A stretch of DNA of 64,000 nucleotides, taken from contig PEAD01000010.1 in assembly GCA_002753335.1 (NCBI GenBank), forward strand, positions 1 to 64,000, written 5' to 3'. The notes under the pieces are model-generated. The model saw nothing but the letters and a program-made list of their open reading frames with translations, was not told the DNA's origin and did no database searches. Made by a program: the position numbers and the translations under genes. Positions 8,276-64,000 of the stretch are shown piece after piece. The DNA is from Nitrospirae bacterium MYbin3 (lineage in GTDB: Bacteria > Nitrospirota > Thermodesulfovibrionia > Thermodesulfovibrionales > Dissulfurispiraceae). Numbering within the stretch: the first letter of the stretch is position 1; every line of letters starts with the position of its first letter.

Positions 8276-8278
8276 AAA

Positions 8279-9994: not shown

Positions 9995-10009
9995 TCGGGA
10001 GGAACTATT

Positions 10010-11302
10010 TTGACAACCAAACCAACATTTCCTGAAGCCTTCCGCTACTGGCTCAAACTGGGATTTATCAGTTTCGGCGGGCCTACGGGCCAGATTGCTA
10101 TGATGCACAAAGAGGTGGTGGAGAAGAAAAAGTGGATGGATGACGACCATTTTCTCCAAGCCCTAAATTTCTGCATGCTCCTGCCGGGGCCTGAGGCCCA
10201 GCAGCTTGCCACCTATATAGGATGGCTCATGCACAAAGCATGGGGAGGCATAGCAGCCGGCGTTCTTTTTATACTCCCATCAGCTTTTATTTTATGGGCG
10301 CTTTCGTGGCTATATGCCGCATACGGAAATGTTCCGTCAGTAGCAGCGTTTCTTTACGGCCTCAAGCCTGCTGTTGCAGCAATAGTTGCAGAAGCTGTAA
10401 TTCGAATAGGAAAGAAGTCGCTTAAAAACAGCGTGCTTATTGCTCTGGCAGCATTGTCCTTTGTCTCGATCTATTTTCTTAAGGCCCAGTTCCCATTAAT
10501 AGTCCTGTCGGCAGGCTGTATAGGCTACATCGGAGGCATATATGCACCGACTATTTTTTCAGCCGCAAAAAATGCTAAAGGCACGACACCAACTCTCATT
10601 TCTAATCTGTCGAGTGATTCTCAGGTTAAGGCCGGATGGACAAGGTCAGTTAAGGTCGTAACGTTATGCTTGTCAATATGGTTTCTGCCTTTGGTGCTGA
10701 TAGGCTTGTGGCGCGGCTGGGATGACATCTTTATGGATATCGGTGTCTTGTTCAGCAAAGCAGCTCTGGTCACTTTTGGCGGAGCCTATTCGGTTCTTGC
10801 ATACATAAGCCAGCAAGCGGTGGAACAGTTCGGATGGCTTCAGCCGGAGCAGATGATGGACGGCCTCGGACTTGCCGAAACAACCCCAGGTCCTTTGATA
10901 ATGGTCAATCAGTTTGTGGGCTATGTTGCAGCCTTTACACATGCAAAGGGGCTTACGCCTGCAGTTGCAGGCGCCATCGGAGGTCTTCTTACAACATGGG
11001 TGACCTTTGTGCCGTCATTTCTGATGATATTCTTATGTGCGCCTTATATCGAAAGTCTACGTGGGAATATCAAAATAGGTTCAGCCCTTTCGGCAGTCAC
11101 CGCGGCGGTGGTCGGTGTCGTCCTGAGTCTCGGGGTGACTTTTACTTATCATACGCTTCTTCCTGAACACGCCGGTTTTGACTGGTTTGCATTACTCGCC
11201 ATATTAATCACTTTTGCAGGGATGCAGTTTTATAAATGGGGAATGATACCGGTTATTGCTGGGGCAGCCCTTGCCGGTTTTTTGTGGAAAACGATTTTTT
11301 AA
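10010..11302 (+). CDS. chrA: Chromate efflux transporter ChrA
   Basis: 430 aa of the CHR family of ion transporters, which extrude chromate using the membrane potential. It is a full-length (long-chain) form with two homologous halves. The first half opens with FWLKLG-like and SFGGPTGQIAMMH; the second with FSKAALVTFGGAYSVLAYI, plus EQMMDGLGLAETTPGPLI and about ten membrane segments. Translation starts at TTG 10010, supported by GGGAGGA 6-7 nt upstream. It lies 15 nt after chrB and 17 nt before a small charged protein, so it is part of one operon. Other oxyanions are possible substrates. Confidence 0.95.
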   Translation: MTTKPTFPEAFRYWLKLGFISFGGPTGQIAMMHKEVVEKKKWMDDDHFLQALNFCMLLPGPEAQQLATYIGWLMHKAWGGIAAGVLFILPSAFILWALSWLYAAYGNVPSVAAFLYGLKPAVAAIVAEAVIRIGKKSLKNSVLIALAALSFVSIYFLKAQFPLIVLSAGCIGYIGGIYAPTIFSAAKNAKGTTPTLISNLSSDSQVKAGWTRSVKVVTLCLSIWFLPLVLIGLWRGWDDIFMDIGVLFSKAALVTFGGAYSVLAYISQQAVEQFGWLQPEQMMDGLGLAETTPGPLIMVNQFVGYVAAFTHAKGLTPAVAGAIGGLLTTWVTFVPSFLMIFLCAPYIESLRGNIKIGSALSAVTAAVVGVVLSLGVTFTYHTLLPEHAGFDWFALLAILITFAGMQFYKWGMIPVIAGAALAGFLWKTIF

Positions 11303-11319
11303 AAAAAGGAGGAAAACTT

Positions 11320-11604
11320 ATGCCGCCCGTAGCAAAACATTTCAAGACAAGCAGTGAGAGGACAGGTAAAGAGTATCGCGAGGTTCATGAATGGCTCGAC
11401 AACGACCCTGAGAAAAAGGCCGAACGCCATGACCTGACAAAGATTTATGAGTACGGAAAAATGATTGAGGAAAAGTACGGCGAGGAGGCGCGGAACGAGT
11501 ATATTCGGCACCTTCATGATGATGTAAAAACCAAATTCGAACACCTTCAGCACGACCTCGAAAAGACAATAGCAGATACTCTCGCTTATTTCGGCGTGAA
11601 ATAG
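11320..11604 (+). CDS. Small charged helical protein in the chromate operon
   Basis: 94 aa, not firmly recognised. It is rich in Lys, Glu, His and Asp, has no membrane segment or signal, and shows regularly spaced histidines (VHEWL, ERHDL, IRHLHDD, EHLQHD). The pattern R-G...H-x-WLD...RH...G...FG-like...RHL.DD resembles DUF6915-type proteins, but this is a weak visual match. AAAGGAGG at 11306-11313 marks the ATG at 11320. The gene sits between chrA and an HD-domain gene with gaps of 17 and 8 nt. A cytosolic metal- or oxyanion-related helper is one guess; there is no direct evidence. Confidence 0.8.
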   Translation: MPPVAKHFKTSSERTGKEYREVHEWLDNDPEKKAERHDLTKIYEYGKMIEEKYGEEARNEYIRHLHDDVKTKFEHLQHDLEKTIADTLAYFGVK

Positions 11605-11612
11605 GAGGCACT

Positions 11613-46036: not shown

Positions 46037-47752
46037 ATGATTGCAAAAAAGAATAATTTTATACATAAAAAACTAGAAAAAATTTTAGTTGCAACAGCCA
46101 CATATAACGAGGCTGCAAACATAAAAGAATTTGTCCAGCGTGTCCGCAATGTTTTGGGCAATTCACAAGAGATCCTTGTAGTCGATGACAATTCCACGGA
46201 TGGAACAGGCAATATTGTCCGCGGCCTTATGGTTTCGGACAAACATCTGCATATAGTTACTCGCCGCTGTAAAATGGGTATCGGATCCGCCCACAAAATG
46301 ATGATGCTATACGCTATCTCTAACGAATATGACTATTTGGTCACAATGGATGGGGATCTTTCTCACCAACCGGAAGAAATCCCATCATTACTTAAACATG
46401 CAGGCAAGAATGTTTTTGTGATCGGTTCGCGCTATATGCCAGGCGGCAACTCAGATTACACCGGCACAAGGATGGCTCTGTCAAGAATTGGAAATTTCAT
46501 GGCAAGAATTATGCTGGGAATCCCTTTGAGAGAATTTACAACATCCTTCCGGGTATTTGACGTCAATCTATTGAAAAGCACACCTATAGAAGATATAAAA
46601 AGCAACGGGTACTCATTCTTTGTAGAAATGGTAAGCCTTATGAAAATGGTCGGCGCCAGACTAATCGAAGCCCCTATCCATTTCAAAGACAGAAAAAATG
46701 ACGTCTCGAAAATACCGCAATTTCAGGTATTGGCAAGCCTTTATAATCTGATAGTTCTTATGTTTAAGCAGCATTTGATTTTTAGGCCCATTGATTACAT
46801 CAAATCATACGACAAGAGTTGTCGGTCATGTGGAGAAAAGGCCTTGCTGCCATTGTGGAGAGACAAGCAAAATCGAAAAGCAGAAAAGCTTACACATAAA
46901 AACTATAACTGCTCCAGCATACAGACAGAAGCAGCCCCCCCAGTACTGTTCGAGTGCTTCTGCTGCGGGTTAATTCAGATACCCTCATCAAACTGTGGTT
47001 CGGTAGACCGCGAAATATATGCCCAAGTCGAAGATGAAACATACTTATCCAACTTTTCTGTTAAGCTTATGACGTTTAGAAACGCTTTTAGAAAAATAGC
47101 TGCCTATCTTCCTAAAAAGGAGCTGAATATTCTTGACATCGGATCATATTATGGAGCGTTCCTTGAGGTGGTTAAGGAAGCAGGACATCATGGCTACGGT
47201 ATTGAACCGTCACACATAGCATCAGCCCACTCTCGAGACATTCTGAAGCACAAGGTGGCAACCGGTTATTTCCCAGGCAAATTACCATTTCAAAATGTCA
47301 GCTTTGATCTTATAACCACGTGGGATGTGCTCGAACACGTAGATGAGCCGGATAATTTCATTGCAGCTATCAGTGAATTATTGCCAAATGACGGATTGCT
47401 GGCAGTCTCATCGATCATCTCAGATTCCTTTATAGCCAAAATACTGCGAAAACATTGGCATTGGATCCTACCCATGCACCTGACATACTTTAGAAAGCAC
47501 CAGATATTAGACATGCTTGACCGGCATGGATTCGATGTTCTTGGTTATCTTCATCACACACACTACGCATCGGTATCATATGCCATGCGTGGAGCGTCCA
47601 GGAACATGCATCCTTCGGTGCGAATGCTTGTAAAGCATATCTCAAAAGTTATTCCAGCTTCACTTGTTATCCCATTTTCTCTAGGAGATGTCCGCATGTT
47701 TATATGCAAAAAAAGACCTGTTTCAGTAGTGACTGATTTATTGCCCGCATGA
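46037..47752 (+). CDS. Fusion of GT2 glycosyltransferase and SAM-dependent methyltransferase
   Basis: 571 aa. Residues 1-240 are a GT2 of the dolichol-phosphate-mannose synthase type (VATATYNEAANI, VVDDNSTDGT, MDGDLSHQPEE). A zinc-ribbon-like section (CRSCGEKALLPLW...CFCCGL) at about 250-330 precedes a methyltransferase (LDIGSYYGAFLEVVKE, TTWDVLEHVDEP) of the Methyltransf_11/13 kind to the end. The order GT-Zn-MT suggests it transfers a sugar to a lipid carrier and methylates it, inference only. It overlaps the next gene by 4 nt. It starts the accessory region. Confidence 0.9.
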   Translation: MIAKKNNFIHKKLEKILVATATYNEAANIKEFVQRVRNVLGNSQEILVVDDNSTDGTGNIVRGLMVSDKHLHIVTRRCKMGIGSAHKMMMLYAISNEYDYLVTMDGDLSHQPEEIPSLLKHAGKNVFVIGSRYMPGGNSDYTGTRMALSRIGNFMARIMLGIPLREFTTSFRVFDVNLLKSTPIEDIKSNGYSFFVEMVSLMKMVGARLIEAPIHFKDRKNDVSKIPQFQVLASLYNLIVLMFKQHLIFRPIDYIKSYDKSCRSCGEKALLPLWRDKQNRKAEKLTHKNYNCSSIQTEAAPPVLFECFCCGLIQIPSSNCGSVDREIYAQVEDETYLSNFSVKLMTFRNAFRKIAAYLPKKELNILDIGSYYGAFLEVVKEAGHHGYGIEPSHIASAHSRDILKHKVATGYFPGKLPFQNVSFDLITTWDVLEHVDEPDNFIAAISELLPNDGLLAVSSIISDSFIAKILRKHWHWILPMHLTYFRKHQILDMLDRHGFDVLGYLHHTHYASVSYAMRGASRNMHPSVRMLVKHISKVIPASLVIPFSLGDVRMFICKKRPVSVVTDLLPA

Positions 47753-49170
47753 ACATATTACTGATAAACCCTCCAGTTCACCATGAAATTAGAGGCCCGC
47801 ATCCTTTTAAAGCGAAGGACATGGGCATATTTCCGCATCTGGGTTTGATGTATATAGCCACAGTGCTTAAACAAAACGATGAGTTTCAGGTAAAGCTTGT
47901 AGATATGGCTTTGGAGCAGACTGAGTTGCCACAAATTATAGAAACCTTCAAATCTTTCGCACCAAAGGTAGTTGGAATATCATCTTATACAGACTGCCTT
48001 TATGATTTGTATGAGCTTGTGAAAATGCTCAGACAAACCTCCAGAGATGTTGTGATTTGTATAGGAGGACCACATGTTGAGGTTTACGCTAATGAAACAT
48101 TGGAAAGCTTCCCTGTGGATTGCATTATACGCGGCGATGGAGAATATGCCTTTCGGGAACTTTGCCGCCGAGTGCGTGATTCAAAAAGCTGGACTGATGT
48201 ACTGGGGATTGGATATAGAAAAGATAATATCAATCACCTAAATACCCCGTGGCAGGTGGAGAATCTGGATAATCTCCTGTTTCCCGAAAGGTCAATGTCA
48301 ACCTTGTCGAGCGTAAAATCTGCAGTGTCAAGGGGGGCTGCAATTACAAGTATTTGTTCCAGCCGCGGATGTCCATATCAGTGCACGTTCTGCAACAGTC
48401 CTTACAAAATCCATCGTATGCGTTCTGCACATAATGTTGTTGCAGAAATCGACTACTGTTACCAGACATATGGAATACATGAGTTTTTCTTTTTTGATGA
48501 CCTCTTTAATTTTAATACAGGCCGCCTTTCAGAAATTTGTGATGCAATAAATAACTTGTCCTATAAAATAACATGGAGCTTCAGGGGCAGGGTCAACCAT
48601 CTTGATGAAGAGATACTGCTGACATGCAAAAACGCCGGCTGCATAAGAATTCACTTCGGAGTGGAAGCCGGAACTGAACGGATGCTGAAAATTTACAAAA
48701 AAAGAATAAATCTGGAAGAAATAAAAAATATCTTCGCTATCTGCCGGAAGATAGGAATAGAGACTGTCGGAAATTTTATTATCGGTGGACCTACGGAAAC
48801 CAAGCAAGAAATCGAAACAACAATCAAATTCAGTATCGCCCTGAATCCAACCTACGTTGAATACCATGTGCTAGTGCCATATCCTTATACAGAAATTTAC
48901 AAGGATATGCTGGCAAAAAAATTGTTGCAAAATGACATTTGGAAACAGTATGCACTGCATCCACAACGTAACTTTGATCCTCCTCTTTGTGAGGATACAA
49001 TGACCAGAGATGAATTATACAAATTGCTGAATACAGCATATAAAAGATTCTATTTCAGAGGAACTTATATACTCAAACAGATGTTGATGCTGTCAAGCCT
49101 CAAAGACCTCTTAATTAAAATTAACGGTGCCTTCAAATTAGCATTGATTGTGCTAAAAAAGAGAACATAA
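47749..49170 (+). CDS. B12-binding-domain radical SAM protein
   Basis: 473 aa with N-terminal B12-binding-like Rossmann part (ILLINPPVHHE, VVGISSYTDCLYDLYELVK, CIGGPHVEVY) and radical SAM core with cluster motif CSSRGCPYQCTFC, followed by GGPTET and HVLVPYPYTEIYK. This BchE/P-methylase-type architecture occurs in many methyl- or ring-modifying enzymes; the reaction cannot be told. Overlap of 4 nt with the GT2-methyltransferase gene suggests joint action on a glycan or lipid precursor. Confidence 0.9.
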   Translation: MNILLINPPVHHEIRGPHPFKAKDMGIFPHLGLMYIATVLKQNDEFQVKLVDMALEQTELPQIIETFKSFAPKVVGISSYTDCLYDLYELVKMLRQTSRDVVICIGGPHVEVYANETLESFPVDCIIRGDGEYAFRELCRRVRDSKSWTDVLGIGYRKDNINHLNTPWQVENLDNLLFPERSMSTLSSVKSAVSRGAAITSICSSRGCPYQCTFCNSPYKIHRMRSAHNVVAEIDYCYQTYGIHEFFFFDDLFNFNTGRLSEICDAINNLSYKITWSFRGRVNHLDEEILLTCKNAGCIRIHFGVEAGTERMLKIYKKRINLEEIKNIFAICRKIGIETVGNFIIGGPTETKQEIETTIKFSIALNPTYVEYHVLVPYPYTEIYKDMLAKKLLQNDIWKQYALHPQRNFDPPLCEDTMTRDELYKLLNTAYKRFYFRGTYILKQMLMLSSLKDLLIKINGAFKLALIVLKKRT

Positions 49171-52373: not shown

Positions 52374-53405
52374 TCAAACCTTGCTAAATCTGGAACTCAA
52401 AAAAAACAGTTTATATGCCGGAAGAAGAATGGTTCTTGGGGTTAATAATATGGGCACAATAAAATACCAAAAGAGAGGAAATGTCTTATAGTGACGGTAT
52501 AAAAGCCTAAAAATCCGGATATAAAACCCAGCGCTAAATTCATGCTTTATTTTGCTTCCAAGCAAAAGCACATAAACGCTTTTCCTAAGCATTACGGCTT
52601 TAAAATGGCTGACAATTCCATTCTCTCCAAAAACATCTCTCACCATGCCTGGGAAATACTCGACATCAATGCAAAACCTGTGATACCTGCCATCTTCATC
52701 CTGCCACGCAGGAGACGATGCCCCTACCCTTAAGGCGATCAGCTGCACCCCCAAGTAACCTGCTATCTTTGAGCGTTTTAATATCGACAACAGAACCGCA
52801 GTATGCATACTCTCGGACTGTTTATACCGTTCAAAAATACTTCCCGAAAAAGAAGCGTTCCATAAGTCTTTTTTGAATACGGCGGTCGCAACATGTGTGA
52901 AAAAGGCATTAGGGTGCTGTGCTGATTTAAGATAGTCTTCATAATTATTGTATTTGCCCTTAGGCTCTTTAAGAAGAAAATTCTGGTCTTTCATCATATA
53001 TTTTGGTGTATCATTTTCGTCTATATAAAAAAAGTGGTTGATTAATGTTATATCGGCATCACTTTCTTTAAGCTGGCGGATCAGTTGAACCAAACTGCCT
53101 GTTATGTATTCATCGTCGCCCAACACCCAACAATACCTTCCTTCGGCATACTCCATACATCTTAACAACCCGCGTATGAAACAGATGTTTTCGCTTTCCC
53201 TCAATATCCGAAGGGGCAGCCTTTTCTCAAACAGCATTAATTGTTCATATGTGTCGTCTGTGGAGCCGTTATCAAGAACGATGACTTCAACCTTCTCGTC
53301 TCCTTTGCAGTCAGTCAAAGCATCTTCGATGCTCTTCAGGCACTGTTTTAAATAAGAGGACCGGTTCCATGTAGTAATACCAATGGACAGAAATATATCA
53401 CTCAT
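52374..53405 (-). CDS. GT2 glycosyltransferase (operon end)
   Basis: 343 aa from ATG 53405, which has GGAGG about 10 nt upstream. GT-A fold with IGITTWNRSSYLKQCLKSI, VLDNGSTDDT and the metal motif region VLGDDEY. There is no membrane segment except a hydrophobic C-terminal stretch. It overlaps the FkbM gene by 8 nt and is the last gene of the leftward operon. Unlike most upstream genes of the operon it lacks the appended Rossmann-like domain. Confidence 0.92.
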   Translation of the reverse strand: MSDIFLSIGITTWNRSSYLKQCLKSIEDALTDCKGDEKVEVIVLDNGSTDDTYEQLMLFEKRLPLRILRESENICFIRGLLRCMEYAEGRYCWVLGDDEYITGSLVQLIRQLKESDADITLINHFFYIDENDTPKYMMKDQNFLLKEPKGKYNNYEDYLKSAQHPNAFFTHVATAVFKKDLWNASFSGSIFERYKQSESMHTAVLLSILKRSKIAGYLGVQLIALRVGASSPAWQDEDGRYHRFCIDVEYFPGMVRDVFGENGIVSHFKAVMLRKSVYVLLLGSKIKHEFSAGFYIRIFRLLYRHYKTFPLFWYFIVPILLTPRTILLPAYKLFFLSSRFSKV

Positions 53406-54564
53406 GAGCAGCCCCTCCTGCAACAGCATAAAGAACGGTTTCGCTGACAAAGCTTGTATAGTTCCTCAAATAGAATTTATAGCCAAGCCCAAGATTATGA
53501 ATATAAAGGGGTATCTCCCAGAGATGATTAGGTGCATGGTAAACGCAAATTGCCAAATCCGGAAGACTTGCCTTGATTGTATTTTCGGCTCCTCTCAGCG
53601 CTTCAAGTTCGGCCCCTTCTATGTCCATGCATATAAAAGACGGATCAAACCCGTAAAGGATATTATCTATCGAAACAGCTTGCACCCATGGACCGTCCGA
53701 TGCAATAATCCTTGAGCCGAAACCAGTATCAGAGCATCTGAAAGCCAGTTTTGCTTCGCGGCTGTAAACAGCGCATGGCAGTACCGTTATGCGCCGGGCT
53801 ATGCTGTCTTTGTTTGCAGACAGATACTCTGCAGCCTGTTTGAATTGATCAGGATGGGGCTCTATACAAACGAGTTCATCAACCTTCCCGACCCGACCCA
53901 GTACACTTCTAAGTTCCCCGACGCTTGTTCCGCAATATATGAAACGTGAATAACCGCGCCCAAACCGGATTCCTTCGGGAGCATACTGTTCATGCCTGTC
54001 GCGCATCGGTATCTCAACCGGTTTTCTCTGCATATGAGTCTGCATGCAACGCATATAAACCTCTTTGCTCTCTTCGTCGCACACCAGATCCAGGCCTGCC
54101 TCTATCTTATCCCTTTGTGCGGCGTAATAACGGAACCCAGTCTCATAGAGCTCCTCCGGTAAACAAAATGTATTGTGTATTTCATAAATGTCTCTCAGGG
54201 AAATAATCCGGCGGAATCCCATCCTGCTGAAAGTCTGAAAAACTTCCTCAAAGATAAACTGTTTGCCAAGGCAAACAACAACAATGCTGTTCTGTTTTTC
54301 GTCCTCGGATGGTTTGTACTCTATTGGTGAACAGGCCGGTATTCCCTCGAAAGTATCACCGGCCTTGAACTTTCTGTCCAACACAACAGATGGAATGTAT
54401 CCGTACTGCCTCATCACAACCTCTTTGAAATAATGAAAGGACTCCCCGGCGCCATATACTATAAGCTTCCGACCCCTGAATTCCCTGTCCATATAAAAGG
54501 CGTCTTCAGAAAATGCATCCGGTTCAAATAGCTTAGAAATCATACTCTGATACTTATCCATCAA
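53398..54564 (-). CDS. FkbM-family methyltransferase with N-terminal Rossmann-like domain
   Basis: 388 aa. Residues about 28-130 hold the operon's shared domain (KLIVYGAGESFHYFKEVV, VVLDRKFKAGDTFEGIPACSP, VVVCLG). The C-terminal half is an FkbM-type methyltransferase (FIYCGTSVGELRSVLGRVG, CIEPHPDQF, SFICMDIEGAELEALRGAE). FkbM proteins O-methylate sugars or polyketides. The GIP-x-CSP turn after the strand matches the same turn in other proteins of the operon. It starts 29 nt after the radical SAM gene upstream in transcription. Confidence 0.88.
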   Translation of the reverse strand: MMDKYQSMISKLFEPDAFSEDAFYMDREFRGRKLIVYGAGESFHYFKEVVMRQYGYIPSVVLDRKFKAGDTFEGIPACSPIEYKPSEDEKQNSIVVVCLGKQFIFEEVFQTFSRMGFRRIISLRDIYEIHNTFCLPEELYETGFRYYAAQRDKIEAGLDLVCDEESKEVYMRCMQTHMQRKPVEIPMRDRHEQYAPEGIRFGRGYSRFIYCGTSVGELRSVLGRVGKVDELVCIEPHPDQFKQAAEYLSANKDSIARRITVLPCAVYSREAKLAFRCSDTGFGSRIIASDGPWVQAVSIDNILYGFDPSFICMDIEGAELEALRGAENTIKASLPDLAICVYHAPNHLWEIPLYIHNLGLGYKFYLRNYTSFVSETVLYAVAGGAAHE

Positions 54565-54593
54565 TGCGCCCCTTGTCTCTCGTCAACGGCCGT

Positions 54594-56462
54594 TCAAAGT
54601 ATAACAATTTCATTGTTTATGCCCAAGCGGCGAATATTCAGTTCCACCTGCTCCGGACAGGAGGCGTGAAGAACTACTATTTTCCCTCCAAAATCTCCGA
54701 ACTCCTCCGGAGAATGGATAATCCTTCCACAAAACAGCTGCCCCTTTTTTGAAGGGTCTCCATCTATGATCATCTTTATATTGGCTTTGCCCATGCATGT
54801 GCCTGAAAGCAACTGAAGAGCTCTAAGTCCGGCGCACCAAATGACAATCGGATCCTGCGAATCGACCAGCTTTTGAGCCACAGCCTCTTCATCCTCCATC
54901 AAAAAGGCCTCTCTCACCATATAATAAGCGCCTTCTCCATCAGGAAGAACCGGTGAAAGATAGCGGACAGTCTTTAATTCATTGGCCGACTGGCCATATG
55001 ATACTACTTCAAAAAGCATATGATCATATCGCGCACCGCAATTTTCAGCAGCTACGGTGAGTTCGAGAGTTGCCGCCGCTTCTTCGAGCGGACCGAACAA
55101 GATGTCCAAATTGCCGTCTCCGCGATCACGGCACCAGACTGCACGATAAACGATTTCCCCTGAAACAAACGGCAGCCTGATTTCGATACCGGTTCCTGCA
55201 CTGATGAAAATGCCCTTCACTTCTTCGTCAAAGGAAAGCCAGAACTTCCTCAAATAAGCGCTTTTGTCTTTTTGAGAAAGTTTATGGAACAGTTGATAAA
55301 TCAGTTCATCTGTTTGTGGTACGAATCTATCGTAAGAAATTGCATCCGCTTTTTGCATTATGCTTTTATAAAGAAATTTGTACTCCCATACACCGGAGAG
55401 CGGATTCTCTGCCTTCATGCGGCGCGGCAGGTCATAAAATACTTCCCTGACATGAAGGGTCTGTGAAACAGGCATGTCGGATATCTTCTTGACGCAGCCT
55501 TTTTTGGAAGAGATTGAGCCGGGCATAACAAAAAGTGCGCTCAAATGAACAAACATATTGTTGGCAGCTGCGAACCTGAACAACCCCTCCAGCTTATCCA
55601 CAACCATATCGGTCACCGTAACATTAAAGGCAAGTTTAGGATCCTTCCCCGGGTCGCCGGAGAACCTTTCCCTCAACCGACGAATATTGTCGAGCAATAT
55701 TGGAAGCCTTCCCCCTTTTCGCAGCCACGAATAGGTTTGCTCGTCAAGTGTATCGCAACTTACATGCACCAGATCGAACCGCGACAACATGTCCAGTTCT
55801 GAATCTTTGAATTCCCTGCCAAAGTTTGAGATGAGCCTGAGCCTCAATTGCGGGTGCCTCTGCATAATAATGCCGCACACCCTCTGCCACTCCGGATAAG
55901 CGGTCAATTCTCCAATGCCGCAAAAATTAAATATCTTAAGCCCCCGGCTGCAAAGAAAATCTATAAACTCTAAGAAATGGTCACGATCCATTTCGGCTCG
56001 ATAATAACCTGCATGTCCACCTTCTCCTGAATGTGCGCAATAAACACATGAGAAGTTGCATCTGTTTGTGATATTCCCACCGCCTTCACTAAATGCATAC
56101 ACTGTTGCAAGCTCGGCTCCCACAGCATTAATGCCTTGGCTTTCGAGATGATCGATAACCTTCTTCTGTAGCTCTTCAGTAGTTATGTCCTCTTCATAGA
56201 CAGATCGGCAGGATATGCAGGGGGCCGGCAATTCTCCGGTCAACAAGCCGTTGCGCAGCCTCCGGTAGTCTTCATTCAGGAAAAGTCCTATGAAGCCCCC
56301 CTTCTGCACAGCATCAAAGTAATCGGTATTAATATTTCCGAAATTGCCTTTCATCGTCCCGCTGCAGCAAGGAGAGATATTTCCTGTAGCATCGAACTGA
56401 ACAGTCCTCCATGGTTCGATGCAGTTTCTTGTTTTCTTTAGATGTCCGTTCATTCCGTCCAT
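54594..56462 (-). CDS. Radical SAM protein with N-terminal SPASM-like cluster and C-terminal Rossmann-like domain
   Basis: 622 aa from ATG 56462; a longer frame to 56540 would run into the upstream gene. The N terminus has SPASM-like cysteines (C14 with PW; C32-C33 in SPCC; C82 and C85 in PCISC) before the radical SAM core with C135, C139, C142 (CNFSCVYC). SPASM domains normally follow the core. A long middle part (residues 340-525) of unknown fold follows, and the last ~95 residues are the shared domain (IVIWCAGLRA, MIIDGDPSKKGQLFCGRII). In this copy the first Gly of GAG is Cys. Confidence 0.86.
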   Translation of the reverse strand: MDGMNGHLKKTRNCIEPWRTVQFDATGNISPCCSGTMKGNFGNINTDYFDAVQKGGFIGLFLNEDYRRLRNGLLTGELPAPCISCRSVYEEDITTEELQKKVIDHLESQGINAVGAELATVYAFSEGGGNITNRCNFSCVYCAHSGEGGHAGYYRAEMDRDHFLEFIDFLCSRGLKIFNFCGIGELTAYPEWQRVCGIIMQRHPQLRLRLISNFGREFKDSELDMLSRFDLVHVSCDTLDEQTYSWLRKGGRLPILLDNIRRLRERFSGDPGKDPKLAFNVTVTDMVVDKLEGLFRFAAANNMFVHLSALFVMPGSISSKKGCVKKISDMPVSQTLHVREVFYDLPRRMKAENPLSGVWEYKFLYKSIMQKADAISYDRFVPQTDELIYQLFHKLSQKDKSAYLRKFWLSFDEEVKGIFISAGTGIEIRLPFVSGEIVYRAVWCRDRGDGNLDILFGPLEEAAATLELTVAAENCGARYDHMLFEVVSYGQSANELKTVRYLSPVLPDGEGAYYMVREAFLMEDEEAVAQKLVDSQDPIVIWCAGLRALQLLSGTCMGKANIKMIIDGDPSKKGQLFCGRIIHSPEEFGDFGGKIVVLHASCPEQVELNIRRLGINNEIVIL

Positions 56463-56476
56463 ATTTCCTGACAAAC

Positions 56477-57721
56477 TCACCTTGGCAGCTGTATAGCCGG
56501 AGGCACCAATGTGCCGCCCTCGGGATCGCAATAATCGCATGCGCTTATCGCTTGCTCCCTTGTCAGAAAGGCACGGATGTCAGATGTGAGGCCGCTTTCG
56601 GACCTGCCAGATCCATGCAGCCGAACAAAATCGGCCGTGTTTAGGGGCACCAATCCCTGACGGCCGCCGTGCGCCGATAATGGACATCTATGCAGTTCGC
56701 CATCCATTATCTGACAACATATCTTGCCCGATACGCACTTTTTGTAAAGTTCTTTATTGATTGCCGCAGGACGGGCATGCTTATTATATGGCGATGATTG
56801 AATCCACATTTCGGTCGGCAGGCAGAACATAACGTCGGAATAGATATTGTGCCTGCCAAAAGCCTCAAACAGTGCGTCCTGCTTTCGTGAAAGGGGCCCG
56901 TAACCACCGCTTTGGTGTACATCCGCACCGCATGAGGATAACACACGCAATGTATCTTCAGAGGGCATAATCGTACCGTTCGTAACAAAACTGATAAAAA
57001 TAATGTTAGGGATCGCTGCAGCCTGTAAGCAGATATCCTTGAGGTAAGGATGAAGAAACGGCTCTCCGCCGTGAAAACTTATTTCCGGAACAACATCAAA
57101 CGCCTCGGCATATCGGGTGAGATCATCGATAACGGACTCCGCCGAAAAATGAACTGGATTCTCATAATACGGTATCAATTGGGCGCAATCACGGCATCGC
57201 AATGAGCATTTTTGTGTAATAACGCTTGTTACGAAAGGGGAGACAAAATAGTTTTTCTTTGTATAGCCATAGTGTGTCGCACCTTCTTCGTAATTTTCGA
57301 AAAGGATCTGAATGCTCCGCGCCAGTTTCTCTTCGTCGCATATCCGGCCCGCGACCTCAACTAAAAATACGAAAAAAAAGGCGGCAGTGTCATAATGTAT
57401 TTTCCTGAAGTTAAGCAGTTGAAAATGTTTTTTAATCGAACGGGCGGTATCAGGCACAAATAGACCAAGGAATACCCTGCCCCCTGGGAATCTCCGGGCA
57501 ATCTCCTCTGGTGACAATACCTGGCAATTATAATATGTTTTCTGTTTAGCCGGATCGTTATCTGAAAATGCTGTGACAGACACTTTGTGATATTCCAACA
57601 CCTTCATGATGTGCCATCCCGCACGCCCGGCACCGAATATAACGACCGGCTCGCCGGAAACCTTAATCTCCTCGATATATGAAGATACCCTTTGCTTATA
57701 TTGTTCCGCTATATCAGGCAT
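56477..57721 (-). CDS. Radical SAM/SPASM protein with N-terminal Rossmann-like domain
   Basis: 414 aa. Residues 25-115 carry the shared domain with G30-A31-G32 (VVIFGAGRAGWHIMKVLEYH, FSDNDPAKQKTYYNC). The radical SAM core has C172, C176, C179 (CSLRCRDC) and SFHGGEP. A normal C-terminal SPASM region has C329, C335, C336, C346, C395 and C398. SPASM enzymes use extra 4Fe-4S clusters for modification of peptides, sugars or other substrates. It ends 14 nt before the next gene's start and begins 5 nt after the stop of the gene before. Confidence 0.88.
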   Translation of the reverse strand: MPDIAEQYKQRVSSYIEEIKVSGEPVVIFGAGRAGWHIMKVLEYHKVSVTAFSDNDPAKQKTYYNCQVLSPEEIARRFPGGRVFLGLFVPDTARSIKKHFQLLNFRKIHYDTAAFFFVFLVEVAGRICDEEKLARSIQILFENYEEGATHYGYTKKNYFVSPFVTSVITQKCSLRCRDCAQLIPYYENPVHFSAESVIDDLTRYAEAFDVVPEISFHGGEPFLHPYLKDICLQAAAIPNIIFISFVTNGTIMPSEDTLRVLSSCGADVHQSGGYGPLSRKQDALFEAFGRHNIYSDVMFCLPTEMWIQSSPYNKHARPAAINKELYKKCVSGKICCQIMDGELHRCPLSAHGGRQGLVPLNTADFVRLHGSGRSESGLTSDIRAFLTREQAISACDYCDPEGGTLVPPAIQLPR

Positions 57722-57726
57722 TAGGT

Positions 57727-59178
57727 TCAGTCAACCATCTCCGCTATCTGGACACTATCCGGAGAATTTTTATAAACAACGTCCAGAATATCCCGCCTGT
57801 GTTTTTCTGGCGAGGCTACAAGAATAGCATCTATATCCAACGATCCAATCGTTTCGTAACCATAAATAGTCCTGCCCTCGATAGTTTTTCCGTGCTGAAT
57901 CGGGTTGCGATCTACAAACCCTATCCATGCGGCATTCTGAATCTCAGGGTCGGACAAGAGGTTTTGCGTGAGCGCGCAAGCCGGAGCCAACAGGATGCGC
58001 TTTCCGGCAAGCGACCACCTTTCTGATTGTCCGCCTTTGTGGGTTATTTTGAAAGGGCGAACAGAAAATTTGTCCGTATCAAACCCTGCCGAAATATTAT
58101 TATTTCTAAAATCCACGAAAAACAGATCCGGAATATCAAGCGGGATATCACAGCCAAGCCGTTCAATGGCCTTCATGATTTGGTCCATAATGTCCTTGCC
58201 CTCTTTGCTTACAGAGGCTATGGCCTCCTTGTAGTAGTGAAAGGCCTCGATACCATGTTTTTTCAGAAGCAGATACAGTTTTGCATAAGCTTCGATTTGG
58301 CCCGAATAGTCATGCCCTGAACGACCCGAAGAGAGCGGCGTGAAATCAAAAGTCAACCACACCTGCTGGGGTCGAAGCGCCAGCATGGCATAAGCGAAGC
58401 CCGTAATATCATCATCACCGCAATTAGAGTCACAGAAAATATACTTTACCGCAAGCATGCCTTTGCCTTTGCTTCCGGCAGCAGCATATCGGCTCAGATT
58501 CTCGATTACCCTGAGATATTTGTCCTGTCCTCTTAAGGCTTTAAATGTGGATGGAGTGCCGGCATCCACAGAGGTGATAACCCAGTAAATAGAACCGTCT
58601 GAAATCCCGTCATAAATCGCCTGATGGAATTTGACCGCATTGGTATGCATAAGCACCCGTATTCTACGTGTGCGAAAAAAATCCAAATAGGCCTCAAGGT
58701 TTTCCAAAAGTGTAGGTTCGCCACCCGCAAAATCCACATGAGAGTTCCATTGCACATCATCTTGAGAAAACTGTTTCAGAACCGACAGGGCGTCATACTG
58801 CTCAGAAAGGTGTAAATCCTCACGCGTGTATGTGCAATAGGTGCAGCGCAGATTGCAGATGCTGTAATGCTGCAGATCTATATGTCCTAACCCCGAGAAT
58901 AAGATATCGCCATAGCGTTTCTGCTCAACCATGAGACAGCGTTTGCAATCCATATCGCTGGCGTCATCGTTAAGCATCCGTATGTATTCTTTCCTCTTAC
59001 CGACAATAAAGTCCCTGGTTATCATGCCCCGGGAGAGTTCTTCGACATTGCAGAACAGTGGCGGCATCAAAGCGCCCCTCGTGCAAGCTCGCAGGCCGTC
59101 TACAGCCAAATTCAATCCGCTCTCCAGTTTACAGCAGGTCTTTACGGTATCATCAGGTAGAAATTCTTTAAGGGGCAT
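57727..59178 (-). CDS. Radical SAM protein with N-terminal Cys cluster and C-terminal Rossmann-like domain
   Basis: 483 aa. N-terminal cysteines C15, C16, C32, C43, C78 and C81 precede the radical SAM cluster C108, C112, C115 (CNLRCTYC) and FAGGEP. The pairs fit a SPASM-like auxiliary site in front of the core, as in the gene at 54594. The last ~90 residues form the shared domain in a divergent copy (ILLAPACALTQNLL, GFVDRNPIQHGKTIEGRTI, DAILVASPE). No usable ribosome-binding site close to the ATG is seen; it lies 8 nt after the SDR gene stop. Confidence 0.85.
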   Translation of the reverse strand: MPLKEFLPDDTVKTCCKLESGLNLAVDGLRACTRGALMPPLFCNVEELSRGMITRDFIVGKRKEYIRMLNDDASDMDCKRCLMVEQKRYGDILFSGLGHIDLQHYSICNLRCTYCTYTREDLHLSEQYDALSVLKQFSQDDVQWNSHVDFAGGEPTLLENLEAYLDFFRTRRIRVLMHTNAVKFHQAIYDGISDGSIYWVITSVDAGTPSTFKALRGQDKYLRVIENLSRYAAAGSKGKGMLAVKYIFCDSNCGDDDITGFAYAMLALRPQQVWLTFDFTPLSSGRSGHDYSGQIEAYAKLYLLLKKHGIEAFHYYKEAIASVSKEGKDIMDQIMKAIERLGCDIPLDIPDLFFVDFRNNNISAGFDTDKFSVRPFKITHKGGQSERWSLAGKRILLAPACALTQNLLSDPEIQNAAWIGFVDRNPIQHGKTIEGRTIYGYETIGSLDIDAILVASPEKHRRDILDVVYKNSPDSVQIAEMVD

Positions 59179-59186
59179 GCTTGATC

Positions 59187-60305
59187 TTATCCCTGACTAT
59201 AATAAATTTTTGCTTTCAGCACGGCATCCTCGATGCTCAAGCCGGCATAATCCTGCACACTGAACCAACGGCCGTTTATATCTCCGTCAAGAAGCGCCCC
59301 CAACAAAACACCCGGAATAACGCTTTCCACCGGATGCGCCGCGATATCACCGCCCATATCGGTTCTTAACCAACCCGGATCGGCCAGGGTAATCATAACT
59401 CCGGTGCCCTCAAGGGATGGGGCAAGGTCGAAAACGAATTTATCCAGAGCAGCCTTGCTGCAGGCGTAAGCCATTTCCCCCGGTCTTTTTTGAATACTGC
59501 TGGTGATGTTGATCACGCGGCCGAATCCGCGTTGTATCATCTGCGGAATAATTTCACGGCAGATAAGGACAGGGGCGATCGTATTGACGGCGTAACTCGT
59601 AACGAAATCCCCAGAAGGCATAGACCAAAAGCCCGAAGGACAGGGTGGTGAAACAGCAGCATTGTTAAACACTATATCTATCTGTGGCGCTAAACACGAC
59701 AGCTCCGAAAGCATCGCCTCCACTTCAGAAGGATTACCGAGTTCGGCAGCAACAGGCACAACCTTAACGCCAAAGTCGGAGCAAACGTCCACAAGTCCGG
59801 CAACATGAGAGGCAGAGCGGCTGTGCGCGATTATGTTTGATCCAAGTTTCGCCATTTCTACAGCAATCTGCCTGCCCACTCCACGCGCTGCCCCGGTAAT
59901 AAGCGTCCATTTGCCTTTTACCGTATTATTAAAAATCGACGCCCCTAACCCTAGGCTATTATCTTGTATCCTTTTGAACGCGCTGAGACTGTTGTATCGT
60001 CTGTCATAACAGGAAACAAATACATCTTTAAGCCCCATGTCCCGGAGTTGCTTATGAATATCTTCATATTTTCTGGCTGTGATTATTACCGTAACTTCCT
60101 CGCGCATTTTTCGCAGTTCTTCAGGAGAAACGCACTTTATTCCATGAAACACCTTTCCCCACTTCTTTTGCGCATTATCGCATAAAAAATCGGGCTCCCT
60201 GCCTAAAAACAGCACAAACTGGCCGAAACAGTCGTCAAAAAGCGCGCCTGTTCCGAACAGGCATACCTTCTTTGTGCCTATATCATCCTTTAACCGGGAC
60301 AACAT
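59187..60305 (-). CDS. SDR oxidoreductase with N-terminal Rossmann-like domain
   Basis: 372 aa. Residues 10-115 are the shared domain (KVCLFGTGALFDDCFGQFVLF, FLCDNAQKKWGKVFHGIKCVSPEEL, VTVIITARK). Residues 130-372 are a classical SDR: cofactor loop ITGAARGVGRQIA, NNAA, Ser in INITSS, and Tyr-Lys in YACSKAALDK. It resembles ketoacyl-ACP reductase-type enzymes that reduce keto groups. AAGGAG lies 9 nt before the ATG. It overlaps the GT2 gene by 16 nt. Confidence 0.9.
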   Translation of the reverse strand: MLSRLKDDIGTKKVCLFGTGALFDDCFGQFVLFLGREPDFLCDNAQKKWGKVFHGIKCVSPEELRKMREEVTVIITARKYEDIHKQLRDMGLKDVFVSCYDRRYNSLSAFKRIQDNSLGLGASIFNNTVKGKWTLITGAARGVGRQIAVEMAKLGSNIIAHSRSASHVAGLVDVCSDFGVKVVPVAAELGNPSEVEAMLSELSCLAPQIDIVFNNAAVSPPCPSGFWSMPSGDFVTSYAVNTIAPVLICREIIPQMIQRGFGRVINITSSIQKRPGEMAYACSKAALDKFVFDLAPSLEGTGVMITLADPGWLRTDMGGDIAAHPVESVIPGVLLGALLDGDINGRWFSVQDYAGLSIEDAVLKAKIYYSQG

Positions 60306-61699
60306 TGATGCATGCTCCTTTCGGCAAGGTCTTTCCAGGAAATTACAGGCAAATCCTGGTTTTGTTTAAGATGCTTTTTCAGTATCATCTTTAATGCATC
60401 TTCCTGATCATGTTCGCTGCTCAGTATAATTGCATCAAGGTTCTTTGATCTTTCAAACAAATCTTCAATTGGATAAACCGGAATATCCAATACCTGCTTG
60501 CCAATTCTTGCCGGACTTGAATCAAAACATCCTAGCACATCTATTCCTGACTGCTGTGCACTCTCTATAATGAGATAAGCATTCAGCATACTGCCCAAGA
60601 CTGCTATTTTCTTCAAACTATTCTGGGAGTCAAATAAATTCCGTCCGTTTTGTAGTGCAGACAACCAGTTTCTAAACCCACGCCTGCCACCACCTTTTGC
60701 TGACGTCAATTTTAATTGAGAAAAGGCACCAACAGGCACCGAAGGCTTAAGCCCAAATAGATATAGACATATTTCGAATGGCAATATTGTATCTAATGCC
60801 CTATTCTCCGGCATAACATTCTTTTCCCAATTTTTTTTCAGGCTTGACAGTTTGCTTAATATTTGATTTTTTGTATTGGTTTTAAAAAAAGAATCCTGAG
60901 TTCTGAAACGCGTCAGAAAAGCATGAATAGCAGCCAAATGTGGTTGTAACCTCTTCTTTCGGTAATTATTTTTTAAAAATAATTGAATGGCCTCAATCAT
61001 CGGATAGCCCTGATCAACATTTCTGGATTCCTGTCCTTTATGTTGACGATACCGCAGCAGAGGATCGGCAAGCAATCCGATAGATCCCTGAAGATTCAGT
61101 GTAAACAGTATCCAGATATCACCACTTGCAAGATAAGCTGTATCCTTTGTGCCGAGCCATCTTGAAACAGCTTTAACATAGTCTTGCCGTTTAAAAAGCA
61201 GTGTCGGAGCAGGAAGCCAGAACTTTTCATCAAAATATTTCTTTATGTACTCGGATGTTCTAAAAACTATATCACCATCGAGTTCATACAAACTGGGCTG
61301 AATCAAAACACCGGAATCATCAATGAGTGAAACATTGTTGGATACAACCAGAAGCTCAGGATTATTTTCGATGAAGGCAATCTGCCGTTCAATCATAGTC
61401 GGCTCCATTATATCATCGTCATGGGCCATGATAATATATTCACCACGACCCATGATTGACGAACGTATGTAACTAGTACTCGCATTACCTCCGGAAGGCT
61501 GACGAATATATGTCAAACGTGGGTCTTCATAACCCATCACAAATTCCGCTGTATTATCTGTACTATGATTATCAACAACCAACAGTTCAAAATCGGTATA
61601 AGTCTGCGCCAGAATAGCCTCAAGAGACTCTTTAAGAAAGCCACTTTCGCATCGGTTATGGGTAAGAAGCGCAATCGTAATTTTATAACTGTGATTCAT
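60290..61699 (-). CDS. GT2 glycosyltransferase with C-terminal Rossmann-like domain
   Basis: 469 aa. Residues 1-230 are a GT2 GT-A domain (ALLTHNRCESGFLKESLEAIL, VVDNHSTDNT, metal region MAHDDDIMEPT). A helical linker (230-360) leads to the shared domain at 370-465 (KIAVLGSMLNAYLIIESAQQSG, CFDSSPARIGKQVLDIPVYPI, DAIILSSEHDQEDALK). The Gly pattern is relaxed (GSM in place of GAG). Its end overlaps the SDR gene by 16 nt, so the two enzymes should be produced together. Confidence 0.9.
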   Translation of the reverse strand: MNHSYKITIALLTHNRCESGFLKESLEAILAQTYTDFELLVVDNHSTDNTAEFVMGYEDPRLTYIRQPSGGNASTSYIRSSIMGRGEYIIMAHDDDIMEPTMIERQIAFIENNPELLVVSNNVSLIDDSGVLIQPSLYELDGDIVFRTSEYIKKYFDEKFWLPAPTLLFKRQDYVKAVSRWLGTKDTAYLASGDIWILFTLNLQGSIGLLADPLLRYRQHKGQESRNVDQGYPMIEAIQLFLKNNYRKKRLQPHLAAIHAFLTRFRTQDSFFKTNTKNQILSKLSSLKKNWEKNVMPENRALDTILPFEICLYLFGLKPSVPVGAFSQLKLTSAKGGGRRGFRNWLSALQNGRNLFDSQNSLKKIAVLGSMLNAYLIIESAQQSGIDVLGCFDSSPARIGKQVLDIPVYPIEDLFERSKNLDAIILSSEHDQEDALKMILKKHLKQNQDLPVISWKDLAERSMHQCCPG

Positions 61700-61733
61700 C
61701 CTGTCTTTCTGTTAATTTTTTATGGCAAATTAT

Positions 61734-62690
61734 TCATACGTTCTTGGATTTTAAAATACAATTTGATTCCTGTATTATTGTATCCTTAGAGCTGAATTTA
61801 GGCGAATAACCAATTTTCTCAGCAGACCTGTAATTTGAATAGTAAACGCTTTTAAATCCGGTTGCACTATCTTCTCCCAAAGCCTGTTCAATCTTGTATC
61901 TCAAGCCGTATTGCGAAAAAAAATATTCGATAATCTCTTTTTTCTTAACAGGCCTGGCGCTTACGACATCAAAGGCTGCATTAATGCCCCCTGCATTAAT
62001 GCATTTTACTATCATAGAGAAAAGGTCATCCGGGTGAAGATAATCCCGAACCATATCAGCCCCGTCGGTAATTAGAATTTTATTATTCATGATACAGTCA
62101 ATAATGTCCGTGATGAAATAGCCGTCAGCCAGATCCGCAAACCTGCTGAAATACGAAAATATCCTGAGATCAACTATCTTCAGCCCTTTGAACGCCCTGT
62201 GCTTTGCTTCCGCATTAAGCCTGACAACAGCATAATAATCTTCCGGAGCGATATTATTAACCCTGATACAATTCAGAGAATCTTCTTCTGCAGGAACAGA
62301 ACATTCCCTGCCGTAAACCGCGCCGCTGCTCAAGCTGATATAAAGGGCTCCAGGGCAATTATTATTCAGATACCTTAGAACCATATTGTCATACTCTTCG
62401 GTAACCGTAAAATATTTCGTATAATCACCCTGCAGCTTCCTTGCGGTTCCAACCCCAACGCAGTTGATTACCGCATCGTAAGAAGAATCGGCAAAATTAT
62501 CGTAGCCTTCGTGAATCTCGCAACCGGTTTCGGATATGCCTATAGAGCGAAGAAAATCACAAACATTACGCTGTGTCCTTGAAAATAAATACAATTTAAA
62601 ATCTTTGCTGCTGAGGAAATTATTTATCAGTCCTTTTGCTATATGTGAGGAAGCCCCCAATATTGCTATTTTTATTTTTCCTATCATCAA
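61734..62690 (-). CDS. NAD(P)-dependent epimerase/dehydratase (extended SDR)
   Basis: 318 aa extended SDR. Cofactor motif IKIAILGASSHIAKGL, a Ser in ISLSSGAVYG, and a Tyr-x-x-x-(Lys-position changed) in YYAVVRLNAEAKHR: the usual Lys four residues after Tyr is replaced, with Y150-Y-A-V-V-R; a conserved Arg sits there. It resembles UDP-sugar epimerase-like proteins that act on nucleotide sugars. The first two codons are ATG, and the second may be the start. It begins 26 nt after the radical SAM gene that runs off the window. Confidence 0.82.
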   Translation of the reverse strand: MMIGKIKIAILGASSHIAKGLINNFLSSKDFKLYLFSRTQRNVCDFLRSIGISETGCEIHEGYDNFADSSYDAVINCVGVGTARKLQGDYTKYFTVTEEYDNMVLRYLNNNCPGALYISLSSGAVYGRECSVPAEEDSLNCIRVNNIAPEDYYAVVRLNAEAKHRAFKGLKIVDLRIFSYFSRFADLADGYFITDIIDCIMNNKILITDGADMVRDYLHPDDLFSMIVKCINAGGINAAFDVVSARPVKKKEIIEYFFSQYGLRYKIEQALGEDSATGFKSVYYSNYRSAEKIGYSPKFSSKDTIIQESNCILKSKNV

Positions 62691-62716
62691 TATTTAAGCC
62701 AATCCCATATAAATGG

Positions 62717-64000
62717 TTAGCACACTAACGTATTGACATAGTCCGAATAATACATAGGATTAAAATATCTATGCAGTGAATATTTCTGACATTTTACACA
62801 TAAAGAATGTGTGTGTCGCAAATTAATAATATCGTCAAGCGAAATTTCTAAATAATTATCAGCCAATTTATGATAGGAATAATTGCAACATGGCATAACA
62901 GACATATCCCAGTTGATAACCGGAAGCACACGATTTAGCAAACACTGCTTATGACGCTCCTTTATTCCATTTTGAATCAACTTCTCTAAGCCTATTAACA
63001 TTAAATCTCCAGCCTTTTTTGCTTCATCGCTTAACCCCTTGCCTTCACAATAATCAAAGGCATGATCAGCTAATAACATCGCTAAGACAGGATGAAAACG
63101 AAATCCATTTTCTTCACATAATTCTCGCATTTGCTTAGATTCATTTAGGTTATTCTTATAAACATGATAATAAACTTCCACTATTGTATTCGTCTGATAC
63201 TTATTTATATATTCGGCTAACAATAAAAGATTCTGGTAGAAAATCTCCCAACGTCCTCCCTTGTGTGTAATTTCATAATTTTTCTCACCATAACCTGAAA
63301 CAGAAACCCTGATTTGAGCAGGTGAGGCCTTAATGACATCCTCAAGATATTTACCGGCATTTAAATTTGATGAAATACCACTTGCTATCCCCAGATTAGT
63401 GTTGATCTTTATTATTTCTGACAATTCAGGATTAAGTAATGGCTCCCCCCAAATATATAAATCAACTAAATATAAAAAGGGAATTTCCTTTATAAGCTTA
63501 TCTATAACTCTGGAATAATAATCAGCGGTCATGAAACCACCTTTTTGTGGTAGGTGTGCAGAATCACCTCTGGGACAACTTAAACATCTCAAATTACATA
63601 CCCCGGAAATTTCTACGGTAGGATAAAAAGGGGATAATTCCTGAATATTTATAAAATCCTTGTTTTTTGTTAATCCGGCACTTTCGCATAATGCAAACAT
63701 TTCTTTATTTTTCTTGTCTACACTTGCAACAAGGATAAAAGAAGATTTGCAGGTTTTGGGATTATTTAAAACAATCTTCGGATCAAGAATTGGAACTCCT
63801 CCATACTCCGTCCCAATAAGCAAAGGAGAACTATCTAGAAATGCTTTTACCGGAAACCCATTCCGATTTAAAGCAAGCTTAAAGCCCCTACCCTTTTGTC
63901 CTGCACCCCATATATATAAATCGCGTCCCTTAAATAAATCAGATGCATCTTTTGCGGTATAGACACGATAGTTACCCCGACAAAATGTATTATTGTTTTT
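62717..64000 (-). CDS. Radical SAM/SPASM protein with N-terminal Rossmann-like domain (partial, open at window edge)
   Basis: The frame is open from the stop at 62717 to base 64000, giving 427 visible residues without a start; a TTG at 63823 is not the start because conserved sequence continues upstream of it. The N-terminal part is the shared domain (LYIWGAGQKGRGFKLAL, AFLDSSPLLIGTEYGGVPI). The radical SAM motif is CNLRCLSC (about visible residues 135, 139, 142), and SPASM cysteines lie in SVMPCCNYS and LCVKC. It is first in the visible part of the operon. Base composition is lower in G+C than in the left half of the window. Confidence 0.88.
   Translation of the reverse strand, partial: KNNNTFCRGNYRVYTAKDASDLFKGRDLYIWGAGQKGRGFKLALNRNGFPVKAFLDSSPLLIGTEYGGVPILDPKIVLNNPKTCKSSFILVASVDKKNKEMFALCESAGLTKNKDFINIQELSPFYPTVEISGVCNLRCLSCPRGDSAHLPQKGGFMTADYYSRVIDKLIKEIPFLYLVDLYIWGEPLLNPELSEIIKINTNLGIASGISSNLNAGKYLEDVIKASPAQIRVSVSGYGEKNYEITHKGGRWEIFYQNLLLLAEYINKYQTNTIVEVYYHVYKNNLNESKQMRELCEENGFRFHPVLAMLLADHAFDYCEGKGLSDEAKKAGDLMLIGLEKLIQNGIKERHKQCLLNRVLPVINWDMSVMPCCNYSYHKLADNYLEISLDDIINLRHTHSLCVKCQKYSLHRYFNPMYYSDYVNTLVC

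Follow-up and report, generated by a model that had tools for sequence, protein, structure and literature searches.

The DNA analysed here (the window) is a stretch of 64,000 nucleotides, positions 1-64000 of a contig of 87,045 bases (G000:C34) from Nitrospirae bacterium MYbin3. An operon on the - strand continues past the window edge, and a single Rossmann-like domain is attached to enzymes of different kinds encoded in it. Translation of positions 52374-64003 revealed nine consecutive open reading frames (ORFs) on this strand, with the domain in seven of them, at the genes already named by an initial annotation of the same DNA. The domain is N-terminal in fkbm, rs4, sdr and rs9, and C-terminal in rs3, rs5 and gt7. 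To characterize the copies, we used a profile (A7) of 24 sequences, all from other genomes, with E values calculated at Z=1000 and 23 proteins tested. The features of the operon within the window are as follows.

53398-54564, - strand: fkbm, FkbM-family methyltransferase with N-terminal domain (PF05050 2.8e-9; TIGR01444 57.2 bits, cut-off 37.7)
54163-54492, - strand: Rossmann domain copy, N-terminal in fkbm (aa 25-134; A7 profile E 2.8e-11; alignment)
54594-56540, - strand: rs3, radical SAM protein with N-terminal SPASM-like segment (PF04055 6e-11, PF13186; CNFSCVYC at aa 161)
54597-54890, - strand: Rossmann domain copy, C-terminal in rs3 (aa 551-648; A7 profile E 8.3e-11)
56477-57721, - strand: rs4, radical SAM protein (PF04055 2.4e-11; CSLRCRDC)
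57374-57688, - strand: Rossmann domain copy, N-terminal in rs4 (aa 12-116; A7 profile E 1e-13)
57727-59178, - strand: rs5, radical SAM protein (PF04055 4.1e-12; CNLRCTYC)
57730-58023, - strand: Rossmann domain copy, C-terminal in rs5 (aa 386-483), with degenerate glycine loop APACAL (A7 profile E 4.8e-5, weakest of ten)
59187-60305, - strand: sdr, classical short-chain dehydrogenase (SDR) with N-terminal domain (PF00106 1.6e-34 at aa 132-322; TGAARGVG and YACSK motifs)
59985-60305, - strand: Rossmann domain copy, N-terminal in sdr (aa 1-107; A7 profile E 1.1e-14)
60290-61699, - strand: gt7, family 2 glycosyltransferase (GT2) (PF00535 6.4e-21)
60314-60631, - strand: Rossmann domain copy, C-terminal in gt7 (aa 357-462; A7 profile E 5.6e-9; model of the copy alone)
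62717-64003 (window part 62717-64000; full gene L002:2718-4004), - strand: rs9, radical SAM protein (PF04055 2.8e-9; CNLRCLSC)
63626-63961, - strand: Rossmann domain copy, N-terminal in rs9 (aa 15-126; A7 profile E 1.3e-21; structure model)
52374-53414, - strand: gt2a, another GT2 of this operon, lacking the domain (PF00535 5.2e-19; no domain match)
61734-62690, - strand: epi, NAD-dependent epimerase/dehydratase-like protein without the domain (PF01370 2.4e-12; no domain match)

The start codon of rs9 is formed by the 3 nt outside the window edge. The listed ATG of rs3 sits 64 nt within rs4, and its true start is probably further downstream, near MDGMNGHLKK.

Three further copies were found upstream of the window on the same contig, in rs11 (66141-66464), a paralogue of rs9, in fkbm2 (67257-67574), a paralogue of fkbm, and in rs16 (71280-71606), a relative of rs4. 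Ten copies therefore lie within 17.4 kb, on six radical SAM proteins, two FkbM proteins, one SDR and one GT2. Identity between copies across partner types was mostly ~15-23%, and phmmer searches with single domains matched the counterparts at corresponding positions, in register, for many pairs. In a leave-family-out test, a held-out copy and its close paralogue were both excluded from the hidden Markov model (HMM) built from the remaining copies. Every held-out copy outscored both 1000 shuffled proteins and 73 decoy ORFs taken from elsewhere in the window; scores were lowest for fkbm (11.0 bits) and fkbm2 (9.8 bits), with best decoys of 8.6 and 5.2 bits in the two runs, and for rs5 (8.0 versus 5.1 bits). 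Since A7 was built without the operon's own copies, it removed the circularity of the first profile. It matched all ten copies (E 1.3e-21 to 4.8e-5), while none of the other tested proteins exceeded 1.5 bits. These results confirm that one shared Rossmann-like domain is present on ten enzymes of different kinds. The initial annotation had claimed seven copies with these N- and C-terminal positions, on unrelated catalysts of one operon; translation, leave-out HMM and A7 profile bear this out, with ten copies instead of seven.

Structure models were then built from window sequences alone. The C-terminal copy of gt7, modelled alone, gave a predicted local distance difference test score (pLDDT) of 72.4 and a predicted TM-score (pTM) of 0.69, and the N-terminal copy of rs9, modelled with the seven-copy window alignment, gave 89.6 and 0.82. 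The order of strands and helices agreed between the two models, indicating the same Rossmann fold in an N-terminal and a C-terminal segment, an outcome that the initial annotation had named as support. Foldseek against the PDB returned four neighbours common to both models, namely the domain of unknown function (DUF) of WbaP (8t53), 3nkl, Rex and VioB (7txp), with the WbaP DUF as the top match of the gt7 model and Rex as that of the rs9 model. VioB was matched at E 6.8e-4 (prob 1.00, TMq 0.60) by the rs9 model and at E 0.011 (prob 1.00) by the gt7 model. A profile search of PDB sequences found Rex (5e-10), 3nkl (6e-10), VioB (1.9e-5) and 2py6 (0.011), while D-mycarose 3-C-methyltransferase, PerB and PglD fell short of significance in this search. 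The entry 3nkl is a UDP-D-quinovosamine 4-dehydrogenase, VioB 7txp was solved with a thymidine diphosphate (TDP)-sugar, and 2py6 is a single enzyme in which an FkbM catalytic domain (1.4e-15) follows the N-terminal segment that matches the domain profile. The superfamily of the domain includes the PglD N-terminal domain, the CapD/WbaP DUF of PF13727, the C-methyltransferase C-terminal domain of PF08484 and the Rex C-terminal domain. Profile and fold searches thus agree on the relation to PglD and to sugar C-methyltransferases that had been proposed before.

We compared the operon's copies with each of these systems. The PglD_N domain (PF17836; the N-acyltransferases PglD, Pcryo_0637, VioB and PerB) has the same Rossmann fold, GxGxxG-like loop, strand-2 Asp and strand-4 small residue, but its partner is a left-handed beta-helix acyltransferase, unlike the partners in the operon, and its uridine-type enzymes carry Asp-Asp where our copies have Asp followed by N, S, R, G or I. 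Methyltransf_14 (PF08484) covers the same fold region, and the rs3 copy is nearest to class I methyltransferase C-termini of this type (38 bits; best matches L055, L050 and L070_33367); the partner there is a class I methyltransferase, whereas here it is mostly a radical SAM enzyme. CoA_binding_3 (PF13727; WbaP-type phosphoglycosyltransferases (PGTs) and PglF/CapD dehydratases) was a top or high Foldseek match of both models, but it is flanked by a membrane bundle and the catalytic domain, unlike our copies. The C-terminal NAD(H) domain of Rex, the best PDB profile match, shares a DxDPxKxG...G pattern. Its partner is a DNA-binding winged helix, whereas our copies sit on catalytic domains.

Next, the conserved residues were examined. 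The Asp ending strand 2 was present in 78 of 79 copies overall and in all ten of the operon. Across the 79 copies the GxGxxG positions carry G in 96%, 77% and 73%, the GxG loop reading G (96%), G/S, G (73%), and the further most-conserved positions are two glycines of the loop after Asp, a proline and the small residue ending strand 4. In Pcryo_0637 and PglD, Asp40 and Asp35, respectively, contact the ribose and the next Asp (Asp41/Asp36) contacts uracil, while the phosphates are held by backbone amides, Cys13 and Ala75 in Pcryo_0637 (PMC8040287). According to our own alignment, from which the equivalence of positions is taken, the conserved GxG loop and Asp match the positions that hold UDP in PglD-type enzymes. 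The second Asp, the uracil contact of uridine-type PglD_N members, was found in none of the ten copies, in which the residue after Asp is R, R, N, S, S, I, N, G, R and S. This residue is Asp in 14 of 17 CapD/PGT/GT4 copies and few others (Fisher p 3e-10, uncorrected for kinship). Its variation by partner fits a nucleotide crevice with partner-dependent base preference. We rejected this residue as proof of cytosine binding, which would be too strong a conclusion since VioB, a TDP enzyme, has Asn there.

On balance, and with modest confidence, we favour the reading that the domain is a Rossmann nucleotide-binding module serving as a nucleoside diphosphate (NDP)-sugar handle for the fused enzymes, and that the operon gathered ready-made fusions. 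In most copies, a crevice lined by the GxG loop, the strand-2 Asp and the strand-4 small residue would grip the nucleotide moiety of an NDP-sugar. We infer this substrate-handle role from PglD-type acetyltransferases; as in those, the module would offer the sugar to the catalytic domain attached to it, and the sugar would still carry its nucleotide when the radical SAM, FkbM and SDR partners tailor it. Cytidine diphosphate (CDP)-sugars would be the likeliest substrates and are the first candidates because CDP-glucose 4,6-dehydratase (RfbG) and RfbH, both exceeding NCBIfam cut-offs, are encoded in the operon, upstream of the domain genes, and glucose-1-phosphate cytidylyltransferase is encoded on another contig of the same genome.

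The structural matches bring in two other functions. The WbaP DUF, for which uridine-nucleotide sensing and dimerisation have been proposed, makes most of the dimer contacts and is stabilised by UMP, UDP and UTP, and UMP inhibits WbaP (PMC10942596). By analogy, the domain could be a regulatory nucleotide sensor and dimerisation unit that matches tailoring activity to nucleotide levels; this DUF was matched by both the gt7 and rs9 models, and a sensor would account for the copy on a GT2. However, the domain of PglD-like enzymes holds the substrate itself (PMC8040287), and the Asp-Asp of CapD/PGT/GT4 copies is missing from all ten of ours, so that we consider a sensor unlikely. Binding of NAD(H) as in Rex, for redox sensing or for supply of a bound cofactor, would agree with the profile and rs9 model matches to Rex, and GxGxxG plus Asp is a classical NAD pattern too. 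Yet the third glycine is missing in 6 of the 10 copies and an intact GxG in 3 of the 10; NAD is not required by the FkbM and GT2 partners and already has a dedicated site in the SDR, and most partners elsewhere belong to glycan synthesis rather than redox control. This makes NAD(H) a distinctly improbable ligand.

To trace the origin of the copies, we compared them with relatives from other genomes. The copies resemble relatives with the same partner: fkbm2 and L022 score 123 bits, rs16 and L066 89 bits, and rs9 and a radical SAM protein of Deltaproteobacteria bacterium Smac51 65 bits, while the best scores between different partner types inside the operon were ~15-21 bits. A tree of 76 copies required 20 partner-type changes versus a shuffled mean of 54 (minimum 47), and 9 changes between our copies and others versus a shuffled mean of 9.5; a single clade of the ten copies was rejected in this tree (p-AU 5.6e-71). 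Identity of the domain and of the catalytic part was 46/48%, 39/41% and 25/29% in three paralogue pairs. The GC content at third codon positions forms a mosaic, being 0.27-0.33 in rs9, feadh, rs11 and fkbm2 and 0.46-0.51 in fkbm, rs3, rs4, rs5 and sdr. These results show that the fusions are older than the operon and than the paralogue pairs. Partner-wise grouping, equal divergence of domain and enzyme, and the GC3 mosaic together indicate that the operon probably arose by bringing together ready-made fusions, likely of several origins. Local domain shuffling within the operon was rejected on account of the partner-wise grouping in the tree and the equal identities in the paralogue pairs. The low-GC block (L002:2718-7650) lies beside normal-GC genes (window 53398-60305), and the FkbM paralogues are in different blocks.

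Fusions of this age might also have left a largely vestigial structural cap, retained because the fusions are old. The equal divergence of domain and enzyme would fit this, as would the degenerate glycine loops of gt7 and rs5, but a vestige would not need the strand-2 Asp that is kept in all but one of the 79 copies over more than ten partner types. We therefore regard a vestige as highly improbable.

At least one match to A7 at 1e-5 was found in 164 of 231 genomes of the class. Partners elsewhere include FkbM (domain N-terminal), class I methyltransferase and GT2 (both C-terminal), GT2+GT9, Methyltransf_24, WecA-type and WbaP-type transferases (PGT), a winged-helix protein and radical SAM proteins, and from size and domain position we infer CapD-type partners as well. 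The domain passed the PF08484 cut-off in two class I methyltransferases (L024 and L050) and that of PF13727 in L031 and L032. Nearly all partners elsewhere are glycan enzymes. The earlier statement that the relatives are known from single proteins is not supported, given the many partner types in other genomes and the matching N-terminal segment of 2py6. Very long open frames (1842-1864 aa) with the domain were seen in G025:C16, G037:C1, G103:C60 and G104:C6, and in the portion of the G104 frame viewed, GT9 and GT2 domains precede the Rossmann domain.

The loci read within the phylum usually contained 1-3 copies per 15-19 kb, the identified pairs being FkbM adjoining a class I methyltransferase, and ten copies in one locus are exceptional within the class among the matches listed. 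A second dense locus lies on a 65-kb plasmid of Smac51 (CP026658.1). The own-copy profile, which is independent of Smac51, found ten copies there, seven of them N-terminal in radical SAM proteins and three C-terminal, of which one is in a class I methyltransferase and two weak ones are in B12-binding radical SAM proteins. A7 found eight of the ten, without the two weak ones, its scores being partly circular as it contains several Smac51 sequences. Much of this plasmid (L070, L071) has the appearance of a glycan locus lacking annotation, and the proteins with domain copies are named hypothetical. Weak copies were found on one radical SAM protein and one 711-aa HAD-type protein of the Brachyspira plasmid pBHWA1, and relatives also occur in Nonomuraea and Paenibacillus. 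A search of genome contigs with the FkbM pair, whose search patterns lay in the variable domain, returned one Chloroflexi contig only. No relatives were found in viral contigs scanned with rs9/rs11, fkbm, gt7 and rs4/rs16, and rs9 had no match in phages. A literature search, with most subscription papers outside its reach, found no description of the domain on several enzymes of one locus.

The initial annotation had read the repeated domain as a common ligand site or docking surface. Docking surfaces by which the operon's enzymes line up would explain many copies on different catalysts in one operon and likewise on one plasmid, and relatives such as WbaP dimerise via this domain (PMC10942596). 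However, our copies are no closer to one another than to same-partner copies of other genomes, the other loci read in the class have 1-3 copies, and the conserved positions coincide with those lining the ligand crevice in PglD-type domains. Together with the greater age of the fusions, these results make an operon-built assembly line very unlikely, while a shared ligand class is plausible.

Several points weigh against the NDP-sugar handle favoured here. None of the seven window proteins reached a Pfam gathering score for the domain region, so that existing family models miss the domain, and the Pfam scan reported no match to PF17836 in any of them. In the same scan, PF08484 gave 18.8 bits for rs4 (cut-off 23.5) with the other window copies not reported, and PF13727 gave no match for the window copies, its architecture being different as well. 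The domain tree has few columns and many weak or unresolved inner forks, for which reason only its broad results were taken. The close match to Rex keeps NAD(H) as a possible ligand. The residue after Asp varies among our ten copies, so that one common base is not evident. GT2 enzymes bind the donor in their own GT-A domain, and a second NDP site on gt7 is unexplained. The degenerate glycine loop of the gt7 and rs5 copies means that these two may be structural or regulatory and may not bind.

The wider operon was also surveyed. This surface-sugar operon contains eight radical SAM proteins with CxxxCxxC, and six of the eight carry the domain. The radical SAM genes are located as follows.

Window 54594-59178 and 62717-64000; L002:5227-6498, 7686-8705, 9253-10374 and 10387-11607: radical SAM genes of the operon

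The region L002:12713-19578 (C34:72712-79577) encodes RfbG, RfbH, a NeuB-like synthase with a C-terminal extension, an acetolactate-synthase-like thiamine pyrophosphate enzyme and gluconokinase, a gene set suggestive of a CDP-linked dideoxy sugar that is branched or unusual in some other way. Just outside the operon, window 47749-49170 on the + strand encodes a radical SAM protein with a B12-binding-like N-terminus, as judged by eye from the translation. Elsewhere in the genome (G000:C50, L015:1189-1770), a winged-helix protein, possibly a regulator, carries a domain copy without the Asp.

An extension of the NDP-sugar handle, which we put forward tentatively and consider unlikely in this full form, is that the nucleotide acts as a carrier tag: a CDP-linked surface sugar would be modified in turn by the six radical SAM proteins, the two FkbM proteins and the SDR, each gripping the CDP end by a module of the same kind. 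Weak support comes from three observations: the uracil-contacting Asp is absent in all ten copies, a possible hydrogen-bond donor (N, S or R) follows the conserved Asp in 8 of the 10, and CDP-sugar genes are present in the operon. If true, the carrier tag would amount to a soluble counterpart of assembly lines based on carrier proteins, and the radical SAM proteins of surface-glycan loci would be NDP-sugar enzymes.

The domain itself is old and widely shared, and what is unusual here is the dense set of fusions, mostly to radical SAM enzymes. Our results indicate that PglD_N, PF13727 and PF08484 all belong to a single module in wide use among glycan enzymes; existing family models neither unite its parts nor recognise it here. 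Many radical SAM proteins of surface-polysaccharide loci have no known substrate, and the fused module points to NDP-sugars.

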